DNA of 33,176 bases, from NCBI GenBank assembly GCA_025399215.1, contig MU621263.1, forward strand, positions 4,106 to 37,281. Direction: 5' to 3'. Positions 1,532 through 33,176 of this stretch are shown here, in pieces. The number at the start of each line of letters is the position of its first letter. Position 1 is the stretch's first letter. The DNA comes from Globomyces pollinis-pini. Its lineage: Eukaryota > Chytridiomycota > Chytridiomycetes > Rhizophydiales > Globomycetaceae. The translations under genes and the position numbers were made by a program. Under the pieces are notes generated by a model. It searched no databases, was not told where the DNA came from, and worked only from the letters and a program-made list of their open reading frames with translations.

Positions 1532-3098
1532 ATGGATAGTGTATGGGATGTTTTACAAAAGACTTTCACAAAAGCACAACAAACAATCGTTTTAACCGCA
1601 ATTGTTAGTTCCTTAATCACTGTCGGAGGATTGTCCACCTATCAATCGTTTAGACGGCAAAAGACAATTAGAAAGATTAAAAGTGATTTGACTGTCGATT
1701 GGGATAAACAGGAGGAAATAAAATCCTTCAATGGGGATTTAGAAGTAATTGTAAATGAGCAATTATCAAGGAACATAGCTTTCTTGGGAATTGATGGTGT
1801 TAAAGCATTAAGATCCTCATTTGTTGTTGTTGTGGGATTAGGAGGAGTTGGTTCACATGCAGTAAGCAATAGTATAACTCAAAATAGGCCCATATGCTCG
1901 TTCGCGCTGGTGTAGAAAATATTAGATTTATTGATTTTGATCAAGTGTAAGGCCATAGTTCATTTAGTGTTATATATAGTACTCTCTCTTCATTAAATCG
2001 TCACGCTGTTGCTAATCGGGAGGATGTTGGAATCCCAAAAGTTATTGCTATGAAGAACCATTTGTTGAAAATTGTCCCTCATGCCAAAATTGAAGCAAGA
2101 GTCCAAATGTTCGATTTAGAGCACGCTCCCGATCTGCTATCTGGGAATCCCACTTTTGTGTTAGGTAATTGCTACAAATTTATGTTATCTAATTTCTGTG
2201 TTCATTGAATGTTTTATGAACCTATTTCTAATCAACAGATTGCATTGATCATCTGAAAACAAAAGCAGAACTAATCGCTTATTGCTCCAAAAATAATATT
2301 CGTGTCATATCATCGATGGGAGCTGGTGCAAAAGCTGACCCATCACGCATTCAAATTGCAGATATATCAGAAACATTTGAAGATCCATTAGCAAGGTTTT
2401 TCAAATCTTTTATTTAACTGTAGATCCACTCGTGCAGCTCTTCGTAAAATGGGGTGTTCAGCACCAGTTCCAGTTGTTTATTCGACTGAAAAAGCTGGTA
2501 TTGTTAAATTAGTACCACTTGATGAAGAAAAGGTCGAAGAAGCAGACCAATACTCCACCCTACCAACATTTAGATCTAGAATATTACCTGTTCTTGGAAC
2601 TATTCCTGCGTAAGTGGTTCCATCAATTAAGAAATAGGTTGTTTGGAAATGCTATGGCATCCTATGTATTGACAGAATTAGCTGGATTTGAAACGGAACC
2701 TTTGGCAATTAAACGAAACAAGCGAAAAATTCAAGATTTATACAAATCTGTTGTCAAAGCTGAGAGATCAATTTTAGGAGAAGAGTAATTTAATATTTAG
2801 ATATAATTTTGTTAGTTGTCAACTCAAAGTAAATGCTGAAGATGCACATTTTATTTTCGAAGAAGTTTGGAAAAGCCGTAGTGCGATATCAAATGCCGTC
2901 AATGATAAATTAGTATTAACACGTTGGGACAACTCAAAGCCTGCTGACTTTGGTAATTTGGTTTGTATGAGTTTGGGAGAAGCTAAAACCCATTCGAAAG
3001 TTTCAATGGATCAACTTACTGAACATTATAATGCATCTGTTTTAGAATATGTGGAGAGCAGATTCAAATTTGAAAAAGCATTGTTGAATGTACGTTAA
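1532..3098 (+). CDS. TCD: tRNA threonylcarbamoyladenosine dehydratase, Tcd1/Tcd2 type, membrane anchored
   Basis: This E1/ThiF-fold enzyme uses ATP to cyclise t6A to ct6A at position 37 of ANN-decoding tRNAs. Coding exons are 1532-1861, 1888-1946, 1980-2164, 2239-2395, 2424-2609, 2638-2784 and 2816-3098, giving 448 residues. Residues about 18-40 form a hydrophobic segment followed by basic residues, like the N-terminal anchor of the two yeast enzymes at the mitochondrial outer membrane. The nucleotide-binding loop GLGGVGSHA is at about 103-111 and is split by a 26-nt intron; FIDFDQV, LNRHAVA and the CIDHLKTKAEL stretch follow. The C-terminal half matches the family's extension. One intron is 74 nt, long for this window, and one donor is GTTTTT. 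Family assignment is firm; localisation is inferred. Confidence 0.93.
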
Positions 3099-3185
3099 TA
3101 AATGCCATGCTTAATATCCCAAATTGTATAATTGTATATATAATTGATTTCCTCGTGTAAGATTTTCAGTAACCAATTAATCAAA

Positions 3186-3272
3186 ATGAAGGTTACAGTG
3201 AAGTTGAATGAATTGATTACCGTGAATGGCAATCGCGTTCAAAGAAAAGTATATCTGGTGAAAATGGTGTGA
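3186..3272 (+). other. Short upstream ORF (28 codons) before the RBM26/27-like gene
   Basis: A 28-codon frame starting MKVTVKLNELIT and ending in TGA lies in the 207-bp space between the dehydratase stop and the RBM26-like start. It could be an upstream ORF in the leader of the downstream gene. It matches no family I know and may be chance. Confidence 0.25.
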
Positions 3273-3305
3273 ACTGAAAAAAAAAAATTCTTTTAAAAAT
3301 CGACA

Positions 3306-31221: not shown

Positions 31222-31269
31222 AAATTTGTCAAACACTTGACAATTCAAGTTAAAAAAAAATTATCACAA

Positions 31270-32511
31270 ATGGTGACAGTTGAAGATCTTGATGACGAAG
31301 AGTCTCATTATACAGAAGAGCTCCTATTAAAGAAACTTGTTCGGGAGCTTAAAATTATTTGCCAAAAGTATGGGATTGATACAAAGGGGAAGGTAATCAA
31401 ATTAACAATTGAATATTAGAAAATCGACCTAGTTCATCGCATTTTATCTGAAATTAAACCAAAGGAAGAAAATAAAGATCCAGTTCTTCCTGATAGTCCT
31501 CAGATAGTGAATCAGGAGAACACTCCAAAACCTGATACTATCACCACCAATCAGAAAGTTGACAATAACGTGGAAGATTTCTTTTGCCCATTATGCATCA
31601 AAAGTCATAATATATCCAGATTGGGAGGGGAACTAATGATAGAATTCATTAGAATTGTAGTTCAACCCAAGAAAGAATTGTCCGAAACCATACCACTTGT
31701 AATGCATTTACCATTACCATCAACTATTCCTGACGAACACAAAAATGCAACTAATCTATGCATTGATTGTATTGAAATTAATTACATTAAATACAAGTCC
31801 AAGTTTCAACACGCGGAATCAACAAGTAATGATCATGAAAATGGATTGAACTTGAGTCCAATTCGACCTGAATTACAGACAAATGATCGTTATTTAAAGA
31901 ATTTCATGCGTTTCAAACTGTTTTGCGACTCAACAGGTGATAAATCTTTTGATTCGACCACCATTTCAGGTAATTGGACCGACACTGTAAATAAACCACT
32001 TAATACGGCAATAACACGCTTTCGAGCCACTTATCCACCGTTCAACAAGGATATGATCAAAAGTCAAATCAGAAATTCACCAACAAAGTATATCCAACCA
32101 AAGTCCGCGTTAAATCCTGATGCACCAATATCAAGATACAATCCAACTTCCACTCCTTCTAAAAAAATGAAAAGTAAAATCGGGTAAATATTAACCAAAT
32201 GAATTGATTATAGAAATCCTAATATCACCCCGCCTAGCAAATGTCAACTCAATCCAGGACTTTACACAGTACAAGCAAAGAGATCTGTTTCTAATGCACA
32301 TATTTTCAACTCTGGAGGATATAGTAGAAAACGACCATTGCAAATGGGTTCCCCTTACTCTCCGTATAAAAAGTTGAAACCAAGCTCTCCATACGTGCCT
32401 CAAGTAAATGTATTGCATGCCAACATGGTTGAAAAAATATTGGAAAGCACTACGAAAATGTCTGAAGAAGAATATCAACGCTCTCATAAGGGTACAAGCA
32501 TCCCTCGTTAG
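31270..32511 (+). CDS. SAP-domain protein with a paired CxxC module
   Basis: Exons 31270-31392, 31420-32183 and 32214-32511 (introns 27 and 30 nt) give 394 residues. Residues about 14-52 form a SAP motif (LLLKKLVRELKIICQKYGID, then GKKIDLVHRIL across the intron), a DNA- or RNA-binding helix pair of nuclear proteins. A possible zinc site uses CPLC (97, 100) and CIDC (155, 158), with a hydrophobic beta-like stretch between. The C-terminal 150 residues are rich in Ser, Pro, Asn, Lys and Tyr (SPYSPYKKLK). I do not recognise the whole architecture. A chromatin or RNA-processing role is inferred from SAP only. The start lies 48 bp from the divergent Brr6/Brl1 start. Confidence 0.8.
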
Positions 32512-32597
32512 AAAACTATTTTTTTAAGAAAAGCAAACTATTGAAACTATTGTTTATTGTCACATTTGAACTAAATTATCATGCTTAAACAATTCAT

Positions 32598-33176
32598 TTA
32601 TACTTTTTTATACTGATTATTTGCAAGTCGTTCTTCAGCAATTACTTGCATTTTTTCAGCCATTTCTGGATATACCTCCAAAATAAAATTCAAGTCCGAT
32701 CGAGAGAGTGAATATAAACTACATGACGTTACAGCTTTAACTGTCGCTGTTCTCTTCATATTTCCAAATAATAATGCAATTTCTAAATGTTATCAATCGC
32801 CTTTAAATACCTCCAAAGAATTGCCCTGGGGAAAGATGTGATATGAGTTTGTTGTCAATGTATACGTCCAGATTGCCTGACGCGATAAAATACATCAAAT
32901 CTCCAGCTGTGCCTTTTTCCATTACCAAATCGTCAGGCAAAAAGTGCGCTGGTTTTAATATCATGACTACTTGAGATATAAAGCCATTGTCAGCTCCTTT
33001 GAAAAATGGAACCTGGATAATCAGGGCCCGACATTCTCGCATATAGATGGCCTAATGTTATTATTCACCATTGTACCTACCAATCGCAACGGATGATTCA
33101 ATTCAGATAAAATCTTTGCTTCATCAAAGTATTTGCCTTTGGAGTATTTCAATTGGTAGTAAGCCAAGATCTTGGA
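32598..33176 (-). CDS. C-terminal part of a cyclic-nucleotide-regulated ion channel
   Basis: The 3' end of a gene entering from beyond the right edge: exons 33176-33081, 33051-32811 and 32782-32598 (introns 29 and 28 nt), 173 residues. The C-linker reads YYQLKYSKGKYFDEAKILSE, like HCN/CNG/EAG channels. The cyclic-nucleotide-binding domain shows VPFFKGAD, EKGTAGDLMYFIASGNLDVY, LSPGQFFGEIALL (Glu of the phosphate-binding cassette, split by the last intron) and the key Arg in KRTATVKA, then YSLSRSDLNFILEVYPEM and a short C-helix. Both cassette residues needed for ligand contact are present, so binding of cAMP or cGMP is plausible. The channel pore lies outside the window. Confidence 0.9.

Follow-up and report, generated by a model that had tools for sequence, protein, structure and literature searches.

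Miniature introns of the chytrid Globomyces pollinis-pini and their possible recognition by the spliceosome

The stretch of Globomyces pollinis-pini contig MU621263.1 analyzed here (33,176 nucleotides, hereafter the window) is interrupted so densely by short GT-AG segments that it raises the question of how U1, U2AF and U2 could be accommodated on one intron. We have addressed whether these segments are introns, which signals and factors accompany them, and how they might be read.

Lengths and identity of the short segments

The first-pass annotation counted 97 introns, 94 of them of 23-37 nt, and our purpose-written full gene decoder returned the same numbers, which are unaffected by banning zero-length exons. 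The three longer introns measure 74, 76 and 69 nt, and an earlier, stricter decoder version placed 64 of 68 window introns at 23-37 nt. The window count is approximate, not exact, as is evident from the deposited G. pollinis-pini protein P0243, which is identical to the letter with the spliced product of the gene at 28386-29201: the decoder missed the 33-nt intron of this gene (length 3n, stop-free) and called its 30-nt intron as 26 nt with a misplaced donor. Summed exon lengths are divisible by three in every complete model, as had been claimed, though the decoder imposes this and it thus carries no evidential weight. The claim that intron removal yields family-matching proteins is better founded. 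Among the 19 of 23 window models submitted to Pfam (all but w00, w08, w15 and w19), 16 reach at least the gathering score, and RAD54, actinin, SF1, U2AF and, exactly, P0243 are conserved proteins restored in this way. The description of a genome built on such introns likewise finds support in a further 190 kb, drawn from 19 other contigs. In the 223-kb sample, 552 of 605 introns are of 23-37 nt under the full model; of the remaining 53, some are surely decoder errors and some are real. The length distribution is narrow (24-36 nt, mode 28-29) with a sharp lower edge at 24 nt, and each kb of coding sequence holds about 3.3 introns. The genes and introns of the window are listed in Table 1.

Table 1. 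Genes and introns in the window (intron lengths in brackets where noted)
Gene	Position	Strand	Introns	Evidence and remarks
ThiF/TcdA-like	1532..3098	+	1862-1887, 1947-1979, 2165-2238 (74 nt), 2396-2423, 2610-2637, 2785-2815	Decoder; Pfam ThiF 145.8 bits
PWI/RRM (presumably RBM26/27-like)	3306..5295	+	3371-3446 (76 nt), 3569-3598, 3947-3974, 4859-4927 (69 nt), 4994-5025, 5215-5241	Decoder; Pfam PWI 32.2 bits
DUF1294	5397..5842	+	5627-5655	Decoder; Pfam
Clathrin-adaptor small chain, 3' part	5975..6338	-	6038-6066, 6098-6130, 6150-6179, 6214-6241, 6252-6282	Decoder; Pfam Clat_adaptor_s 42.1 bits, profile 95-138 of 142; by eye extends upstream to about 6600-6700, exons that the decoder misses
GYPQGQ-repeat protein	7036..8608	+	7109-7134, 7703-7730, 7834-7862, 7930-7960, 8184-8208, 8448-8474	Decoder only; zero Pfam families at E 0.001
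Methyltransferase	8637..9667	-	9041-9070, 9117-9147, 9234-9259, 9559-9587	Decoder; Pfam
Gelsolin-repeat	9787..11071	-	9916-9943, 10201-10229, 10714-10739, 10841-10872, 10912-10941	Decoder; Pfam Gelsolin 142.8 bits
986 codons, coiled-coil-like by eye	11398..14385	+	11824-11853	Decoder
Without family name	14486..15308	+	14553-14577, 14633-14665, 14809-14842, 14918-14946	Decoder only; zero families in Pfam search
Frataxin	15505..16046	+	15794-15823, 15885-15913	Decoder; Pfam Frataxin_Cyay 126 bits
Ribosomal protein L9-like	16247..16943	-	16771-16801	Decoder; Pfam Ribosomal_L9_N and _C
Ubiquitin hydrolase	17166..19060	+	17356-17383, 17492-17520, 18102-18128, 18255-18279, 18412-18441, 18749-18773, 18849-18875	Decoder; Pfam UCH 131.4 bits
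Rer1	19440..20112	+	19497-19527, 19651-19675, 19846-19877, 20017-20043	Decoder; Pfam Rer1, profile 4-167 of 167
Alpha-actinin (13 introns)	20387..22700	-	20606-20629, 20934-20959, 21182-21212, 21572-21597, 21642-21670, 21732-21757, 21860-21889, 21919-21946, 21997-22027, 22207-22237, 22372-22403, 22509-22540, 22579-22614	Decoder; splice-signal-free alignment; Pfam CH
RAD54 (10 introns; 13-nt exon 24256-24268)	22838..25445	-	23197-23224, 23297-23322, 23405-23431, 23652-23679, 23987-24014, 24225-24255, 24269-24300, 24655-24682, 24890-24916, 25148-25172	Splice-signal-free alignment; homologues
ATP-grasp (D-Ala-D-Ala ligase C-like)	25803..27128	+	25938-25964, 26160-26191, 26294-26325, 26421-26448, 26724-26752, 26852-26880	Decoder; Pfam
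eIF2B-family	27160..28356	+	27222-27250, 27397-27422, 27646-27676, 27782-27811, 27865-27891, 27955-27983, 28170-28204	Decoder; Pfam IF-2B, profile 2-280 of 280
SPF45-like without G-patch	28386..29201	-	28850-28882 (33 nt), 28448-28477 (30 nt)	Identity with P0243; decoder placed the second intron at 28448-28473
Brr6-like	30376..31221	-	30431-30456, 30541-30567, 30710-30732, 30849-30877	Decoder; Pfam Brr6_like_C_C 92.3 bits
SAP-domain	31270..32511	+	31393-31419, 32184-32213	Decoder; Pfam SAP 24.3 bits, barely above cut-off
Cyclic-nucleotide-binding protein, 3' part	32598..33176	-	32783-32810, 33052-33080	Decoder; Pfam cNMP_binding

The preference for short GT-AG segments does not depend on the length prior or the splice-site model. 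With dicodon evidence only, a flat prior and no splice-site model, the GT-AG rule placed 271 of 453 introns at 23-37 nt in the 223 kb, compared with 26-98 for 15 decoy dinucleotide pairs (window: 44 of 67 versus 5-20), and a second decoy run gave identical values except for one decoy. The codon tables used there were trained on GT-AG models, a bias from which iteration 0 is free: when codon usage was taken solely from long ORFs, the length prior was flat over 12-300 nt and splice-site weights were left out, 158 of 304 introns fell within this range. Splice-site weights combined with a flat length prior gave 471 of 579 (window, 85 of 93). The full model found only 13 introns (8 of 23-37 nt) in Markov-resampled sequence and 11 (6 of 23-37 nt) in reversed sequence. 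Spliced alignment to proteins of relatives, run without any splice-site rule, recovered for alpha-actinin all 13 intron lengths exactly as decoded (B. salamandrivorans protein) and for RAD54 8 of 10 singly (Boothiomyces protein), the other two appearing as one 63-nt gap (31+32) around the 13-nt exon. On this sequence evidence, we classify the segments as U2-type spliceosomal introns belonging to G. pollinis-pini (Chytridiomycota, Rhizophydiales).

Splice signals and spliceosomal components

A branch motif shortly before the acceptor, as first proposed from the window alone, is borne out: yTrAy occurs in 163 of the 266 coding-only introns of 24-36 nt versus 95.0 in shuffles. Enrichment of the branch A spans 6-12 nt ahead of the last G (at 6 and 7 nt, 34 and 30 cases versus 7.0 and 7.3 in shuffles), whereas it lies 4-5 nt before it only once versus 13.9 expected. 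Of 257 introns, 124 have a single branch match, with the A at position 17-26 in 121 of them (mode 19-20), and in longer introns both sides of the branch A lengthen (r 0.76 and 0.58). With about 17-26 nt from donor to branch and so little beyond it, donor, branch point and acceptor do almost touch. The branch motif is missing from the 30-nt intron in the SPF45-like gene. Information content is 0.03 bits at donor position +5, where G occurs in 21%, and 0.07 bits at +6; the acceptor has T at -3 in 81%. A pyrimidine run of at least 8 nt anywhere in the intron is absent from 238 of the 257 introns and present in 19.

The suspicion that U2AF and SF1 might be reduced did not hold. SF1 (271.5 bits to human SF1), U2AF65 (RRM1, RRM2 and UHM; 203 bits for RRM1-2 and 80 bits for the UHM) and U2AF35 (two zinc fingers and UHM; 298 bits to S. 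pombe U2AF23) are all full-length and canonical. U2 snRNA matches its model over positions 1-192 of 192 (135.4 bits) and contains the branch-binding GUAGUA. The idea of an altered factor survives in part, because a related protein encoded in the window does look altered. Its best PDB matches are UHM chains of Splicing factor 45 (E 3.4e-4), it scores 23 bits with Pfam RRM_1, and BLASTP aligns it with human SPF45 at 53.1 bits with a second collinear stretch upstream. A G-patch searched for up to E 10 is absent from it, and by eye none of the 11 G-patch matches in the genome is continued by a UHM. It is therefore called SPF45-like rather than SPF45, and it is a candidate short-intron factor. Its predicted structure (mean pLDDT 52) is too poor to help.

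How the micro-introns might be recognized

We favor, with moderate confidence, the explanation that each micro-intron is recognized whole as a single compact unit (intron definition). SF1 would bind the weak branch site yTrAy and U2AF35 the TAG 6-12 nt downstream of it. Since space for a pyrimidine tract is lacking, binding of U2AF65 to a tract would be replaced by protein contacts that link to the U2 particle, namely UHM domains (those of U2AF65, perhaps also of the SPF45-like protein) on ligand motifs. U1 would make only a weak contact (AAG/GTA) and probably be displaced at an early stage, removing the need for U1 and U2 to lie next to each other. The fixed spacing would then carry the information missing from the weak donor, the weak branch site and the absent tract, and the 24-nt lower edge could arise by adding two minima, one of about 17 nt between donor and branch A and one of 6 nt between branch A and the last G. 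Intron definition is favored by the homology-supported 13-nt RAD54 exon and by the decoded 10- and 19-nt exons of the clathrin-adaptor gene. Counting against the compact-unit explanation, the branch motif is found in just the 163 of 266 introns noted above, which leaves many branch sites without an assignment, 53 of 605 introns fall outside 23-37 nt, U2AF65 retains both RNA-binding RRMs, which pure bridging would not need, and the presence of the SPF45-like protein means that U2AF is possibly not the factor in use.

It is a real, though unlikely, possibility that the SPF45-like protein, cut down to its UHM part, is the micro-intron factor and U2AF serves mainly longer introns. The general lack of tracts would suit it, both U2AF genes themselves hold longer introns (60 and 126 nt; 80 nt), and the human SPF45 UHM is described as displacing U2AF65 from SF3b155 (PMC8363638). 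On the other hand, human SPF45 without its G-patch keeps SF3b155 binding and loses the rescue of short-intron splicing according to the same source, the Globomyces UHM is divergent (a polyadenylate-binding protein ranks next in PDB at E 8.8e-4), and the U2AF and SF1 sequences are fully conserved. We think it improbable that U1 snRNA is divergent or lost, with U6/U5 and Prp8 picking the GTA donor and the U1-U2 clash thereby gone. An unaltered U1 snRNA would have the end ACUUACCU. The near-uninformative +5 position is consistent with an altered U1, and in the partly masked assembly the Rfam model did not find U1, while its consensus pattern matched once, below the 4 matches in the reversed control. 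U6, which must exist, was likewise missed by the Rfam model and by patterns (by eye, other U6 features are absent around its sole exact pattern match), so the lack of U1 matches means little; moreover, donors fit the U1-complementary CAG/GTAAGT better than exon GTs do (5.30 versus 3.72 of 9), and Stentor is described as combining GUAAUU-type introns with a conserved U1 (PMC9505925).

Exon definition, in which sites are paired across the exon and U1 and U2AF/U2 crowd the intron only after rearrangement, has very little probability in our view. The median internal exon of 142 nt is of suitable size, but 19 of 483 internal exons are shorter than 30 nt, the 13-nt RAD54 exon is flanked by introns of 32 and 31 nt, and cross-intron contacts are required before catalysis anyway. 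The reading that the segments represent assembly errors, programmed frameshifts or DNA elements eliminated at another life-cycle stage, instead of introns, is almost certainly wrong: GT-AG far exceeds the 15 decoy pairs, the branch site is enriched at a fixed distance, outside species give identical insert lengths, P0243 matches exactly, and the spliceosomal parts (U2, SF1 and U2AF) are present. Returning to compact units, a fuller scheme is more speculative and rather unlikely: an unreduced spliceosome with intact SF1 and U2AF would splice almost every intron by reading one spacing-coded signal at about 17-26 nt from donor to branch without a tract, with UHM bridging by U2AF65 and/or the G-patch-less SPF45-like protein in place of tract binding, U1 and U2 never together on the intron, and an assembly order unlike that of human or yeast.

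Comparison with other miniature introns

The introns of Paramecium tetraurelia are about the size of those in Globomyces, and both organisms are free-living and intron-rich, although Paramecium is a ciliate. Its introns are described as miniature and numerous (PMC3629993, PMC10245619). It was fair to place the window introns close to or under the minimum length of most eukaryotes, yet they are no record, since Stentor, mikrocytids and the chlorarachniophyte nucleomorph have published introns of 15-21 nt (PMC9505925, PMC10245619). Stentor coeruleus shares GU-AG borders, AU-richness, a weak branch consensus and ordinary snRNAs and snRNP proteins; its introns are described as half as long (15-16 nt), with a near-fixed branch position and present in 18% of genes (PMC9505925), in contrast to the density and the 24-36 nt spread in Globomyces. 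Mikrocytids (16-17 nt) and the chlorarachniophyte nucleomorph (18-21 nt) also show a narrow range at the bottom of the scale, but are strongly reduced parasites or relict nuclei, and the mikrocytid spliceosome is reported as reduced with highly conserved intron sequences (PMC10245619), whereas in Globomyces SF1 and U2AF are intact and motifs weak. Encephalitozoon cuniculi, a fungal relative with introns among the shortest, is described as having 37 introns, strict motifs and more than fifty core spliceosomal components lost (PMC3629993), compared with hundreds of weak-motif introns in 223 kb here. The SPF45-dependent short introns of human likewise have a tract too short for U2AF65, but the model intron is 56 nt, the genome is long-introned and the G-patch is needed (PMC8363638), which the Globomyces protein does not have. 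Short introns are known from ciliates, nucleomorphs, mikrocytids and microsporidia, and Globomyces joins them as an unreduced fungal member.

In practical terms, deposited gene models of Globomyces sp. JEL0801, a sister strain, mishandle the micro-introns in all 3 genes checked: conserved exons were dropped from RAD54 and actinin, and both introns of the SPF45-like gene were read through. The one G. pollinis-pini model compared, P0243, is correct. Human splicing is reported to fail when the spacing between donor and branch point is below about 46 nt (PMC11291888), whereas Globomyces apparently manages with 17-26 nt and recognizable SF1 and U2AF. In contrast to the parasites and relict nuclei with tiny introns, it retains its 3' splice site proteins in full, which makes the length limit of a fairly normal spliceosome directly testable in it, and Globomyces is a good system for the minimum intron size under ordinary splicing machinery, suited also to testing the role of SPF45-like proteins.

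Lengths and support of the micro-introns

The G. pollinis-pini assembly (Chytridiomycota, Rhizophydiales, Globomycetaceae) comprises 18,547,825 bases in 459 contigs, and C174, the contig that holds the window at positions 4106-37281, has 37,281 bases. For gene finding we built a two-strand decoder that combines codon evidence with a phase-aware treatment of introns. It was applied to the window together with 19 10-kb stretches drawn from other contigs (223 kb in all). Iteration 0 derived codon usage exclusively from long ORFs, used a flat prior over lengths of 12-300 nt and applied no splice-site weighting; in that run, 158 of the 304 introns measured 23-37 nt. 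When dicodon evidence was used, with the prior still flat and splice sites unweighted, 271 of 453 GT-AG introns fell in this range, compared with 26-98 for 15 decoy pairs, among which GT-AT and GT-AA had the highest counts. The proportion was 471/579 when splice weights were combined with the flat prior, and the learned length prior gave 552/605 in the sample and 94/97 in the window, where the three remaining introns are 74, 76 and 69 nt long. The first-pass annotation had by hand counted 94 of 97 introns in this length range, and the decoder arrives at the identical figure. Only 13 introns in total were called in resampled sequence and 11 in reversed sequence. The earliest decoder version gave 64/68 in the window, an undercall due to an over-high intron penalty, and the removal of zero-length exons, which the second version had allowed in the sample, left the window result the same.

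The decoder rarely detects introns of 3n length without a stop (27/173 versus 145/396 for other lengths), and we claim no depletion of this class. It missed at least one 33-nt intron, in the SPF45-like gene, which shows that this blind spot is real and that 97 is an undercount. It also misplaced one donor in that gene, and the clathrin-adaptor gene has exons outside its model. Of the introns of at least 38 nt (49/605 in the sample), many may be false joins, since in the flat-prior run all decoys exceed GT-AG in calls of such length.

The lengths were also compared with spliced alignments of outside proteins to the window, in which gaps were permitted between any dinucleotides. Actinin of B. 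salamandrivorans required 13 gaps (24-36 nt), all exactly of the decoder lengths, and agreement was found for 12/12 gaps with Spizellomyces and 12/13 with Terramyces, the exception being 58 nt against the decoder's 31. RAD54 of Boothiomyces and B. dendrobatidis recovered 8 of 10 introns singly, together with one 63-nt gap that equals the sum of 32- and 31-nt introns flanking a 13-nt exon. With S. pombe RAD54, which covers the gene partially, 7 of 9 gaps agree when the 63-nt gap is counted, and two (21 and 18 nt) have no matching decoder intron. Over aligned columns, spliced RAD54 is 99% identical to that of the sister strain Globomyces sp. JEL0801, 75% to Boothiomyces and 65% to Batrachochytrium dendrobatidis, as computed on an early model with one junction partly wrong; by the search tool's measure, the values are 95, 75 and 68%. 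For spliced actinin, the aligned parts show 100% identity with the JEL0801 model, and removal of two introns from the SPF45-like gene yields the deposited G. pollinis-pini protein P0243 exactly. Among 19 submitted window proteins, 16 passed the Pfam gathering score, including Rer1, eIF2B-family, frataxin, UCH, gelsolin and Brr6-like proteins. One of the three failures, the SPF45-like protein, passes RRM_1 after intron correction, and the other two are called by the decoder alone. We had taken the clathrin-adaptor model for spurious, a view overturned by its Pfam support.

Coordinates of genes and other features in the window and on two further contigs of the assembly
Feature	Location	Strand	Remarks
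TCGAACA/TGTTCGA-rich intergenic stretch	window ~1130-1190		near-palindromic by eye
Clathrin-adaptor small chain gene	window 5975-6700	minus	includes 10- and 19-nt exons; upstream exons visible in frames, missed by the decoder
Decoder-called gene	window 7036-8608		no Pfam pass
GYPQGQPQQM repeat run	window 7135-7490		protein without Pfam family
Gelsolin/severin-like protein	window 9787-11071		three repeats; in a chytrid
Decoder-called gene	window 14486-15308		no Pfam pass
D-Ala-D-Ala ligase C-like ATP-grasp protein	window 25803-27128		in a fungus
SPF45-like gene	window 28386-29201	minus	encodes 250 residues
U2AF65 gene	C16:46301-48700		long introns, far above the norm
U2AF35 gene	C47:38401-40100		one long intron, far above the norm

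It is also evident that micro-introns have affected gene models deposited for JEL0801. In all three genes checked (P0001, P0121 and P0244), conserved exons between micro-introns were lost or introns were read through. The RAD54 deposit shows 24 gap columns after ARVWR, at a stretch present in 6/6 other aligned relatives; in the actinin deposit, 33 residues are missing from the second CH domain that 2/2 others have; and the SPF45-like deposit reads through both introns. Separately, Terramyces P0122 is deposited as an actinin with ribosomal L9 domains. Since a few kb separate the actinin and L9 genes in the window, this fusion may be an annotation error.

Splice sites, branch points and intron density

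Donor and acceptor statistics were taken from 256 introns called in both the coding-only run and the full model. Donors have A at +3 in 91% of cases, A or T at +4, and G at +5 in merely 21%, and the acceptor is TAG in 81%. The match to the U1-complementary consensus averages 5.30 of 9 positions at donors versus 3.72 at exonic GTs. Of the 266 coding-only introns, 163 contain the branch-point motif yTrAy, where dinucleotide shuffles predict 95.0. Counted back from the last G, the branch A is in excess at 6 nt (34 versus ~7) and 7 nt (30 versus ~7), remains raised to ~11-12 nt, and is nearly never found at 4-5 nt (1 versus 13.9). Branch geometry was worked out on the 124 of 257 introns in which the motif matches just once within 5-12 nt. 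The branch A occupies intron positions 17-26 in 121 of them and 14-15 in the other 3, and both the donor-branch and the branch-acceptor arms grow with intron length. A pyrimidine run of at least eight is present in 19/257 introns. GTA and TAG spaced 23-37 nt apart occur 1.23 times per intron within ±100 nt, with the true pair counted in 188/257, so that the spacing and these triplets together admit no more than roughly half a spurious pair for each intron.

Over 168,921 nt of coding sequence, the 552 introns in the 23-37 nt range amount to a density of ~3.3 per kb. A fungal survey gives an average of 3.93 introns per kb for two chytrids, and terms the mean Cryptococcus intron of 63 bp relatively short (PMC8476143).

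Splicing factors and the recognition of micro-introns

The first-pass annotation had suggested looking for reduced or altered U2AF and SF1, and we found SF1, U2AF65 and U2AF35 all to be full-length. SF1 (contig C262, 472 aa) scores 271.5 bits against human SF1; U2AF65 (467 aa) scores 203 bits over RRM1-RRM2 and 80 bits over the UHM; and U2AF35 (263 aa) scores 298 bits against S. pombe U2AF23. Paired CCCH matches on C16 had been considered as U2AF35 and belong to a different CCCH protein, the true gene being on C47. The U2 snRNA is complete with its GUAGUA box. For U6, the Rfam model and three patterns returned nothing usable, and the sole exact pattern match was dropped, its surroundings being without other U6 features by eye; U6 must exist, and these misses are no sign of absence. 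U1 was not found by the Rfam model or by pattern, where the one match was dropped against four in the reversed control, and this result has no bearing on absence, as U6 was missed likewise.

The SF1 gene has six introns of 25-31 nt. Introns of the U2AF35 gene are 25, 29, 30, 34 and 80 nt long, and those of the U2AF65 gene 25, 26, 28, 28, 30, 60 and 126 nt. The sites of the 126-nt intron, which lies inside RRM2, and of the 80-nt intron fall in gapless alignment to human U2AF65 and S. pombe U2AF23, respectively, and the 60-nt intron is called by the decoder alone. From these long introns, self-regulation of U2AF65 and U2AF35 by splicing is possible.

In humans, a distance of ~46 nt between donor and branch point is required for splicing (PMC11291888), and U2AF-dependent splicing needs about eight pyrimidines (PMC8363638). 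The Globomyces micro-introns offer neither, while SF1 and U2AF are both intact. On the simplest reading, whose spacing and motifs are observed and whose order of events we infer, the micro-introns probably undergo compact intron definition by SF1 and U2AF with bridging through UHMs. The branch site and TAG would be held by SF1 and U2AF35, the U2 particle would be linked through UHM contacts, U1 contacts would be weak and brief, and much of intron recognition would come from the fixed spacing.

Alternatively, an SPF45-like protein might replace U2AF. On short introns, human SPF45 displaces U2AF65 through its UHM, which binds SF3b155; the G-patch is required for splicing and dispensable for that binding (PMC8363638). 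A genome search for the G-patch gave 11 matches, none of which runs on into a UHM by eye, and we had taken an SPF45-like protein to be absent. This was overturned by the SPF45-like protein encoded in the window, which has no G-patch by Pfam at E 10 and was thus invisible to the search. The top match of its C-terminal domain among solved structures is the UHM of human Splicing factor 45 (E 3.4e-4), and Pfam RRM_1 scores 23 bits (cut-off 20.7). In BLASTP against human SPF45, the UHM aligned with 53.1 bits, and another stretch, upstream of it, aligned in the same order. These matches depend on the gene model: translated with the erroneous 26-nt intron of the decoder, the protein matches no Pfam family, and when the ORF ended at the misplaced donor the PDB match was weak (E 0.21). 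Single-sequence structure prediction of P0243 was too poor for use (mean pLDDT 52), and its relatives at E 1 among 403 candidates are the two Globomyces proteins only. A tblastn of P0243 against plasmids, an ill-suited target, returned no match. The presence of this protein raises the odds that an SPF45-like factor replaces U2AF and lowers those of compact definition by SF1 and U2AF, although human SPF45 has a G-patch and the Globomyces protein does not. Judged from its sequence, it is the most interesting lead and a candidate micro-intron factor.

Relation to known short introns

Introns of 15-21 nt are described in Stentor, mikrocytids and nucleomorphs (PMC9505925, PMC10245619), and very short introns in microsporidia and Paramecium (PMC3629993). 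The literature searched gave no account of such introns for Globomyces or another free-living fungus; the G. pollinis-pini genome paper, which lay outside that search, could mention them. The deposited G. pollinis-pini annotation already has micro-introns, as seen in one gene (P0243). With tiny introns in print elsewhere and some already contained in this annotation, the micro-introns are not a new kind. Globomyces joins the known short-intron organisms, and is unusual among them: it is a fungus, it is rich in introns, and its 3′ splice site complex is canonical.
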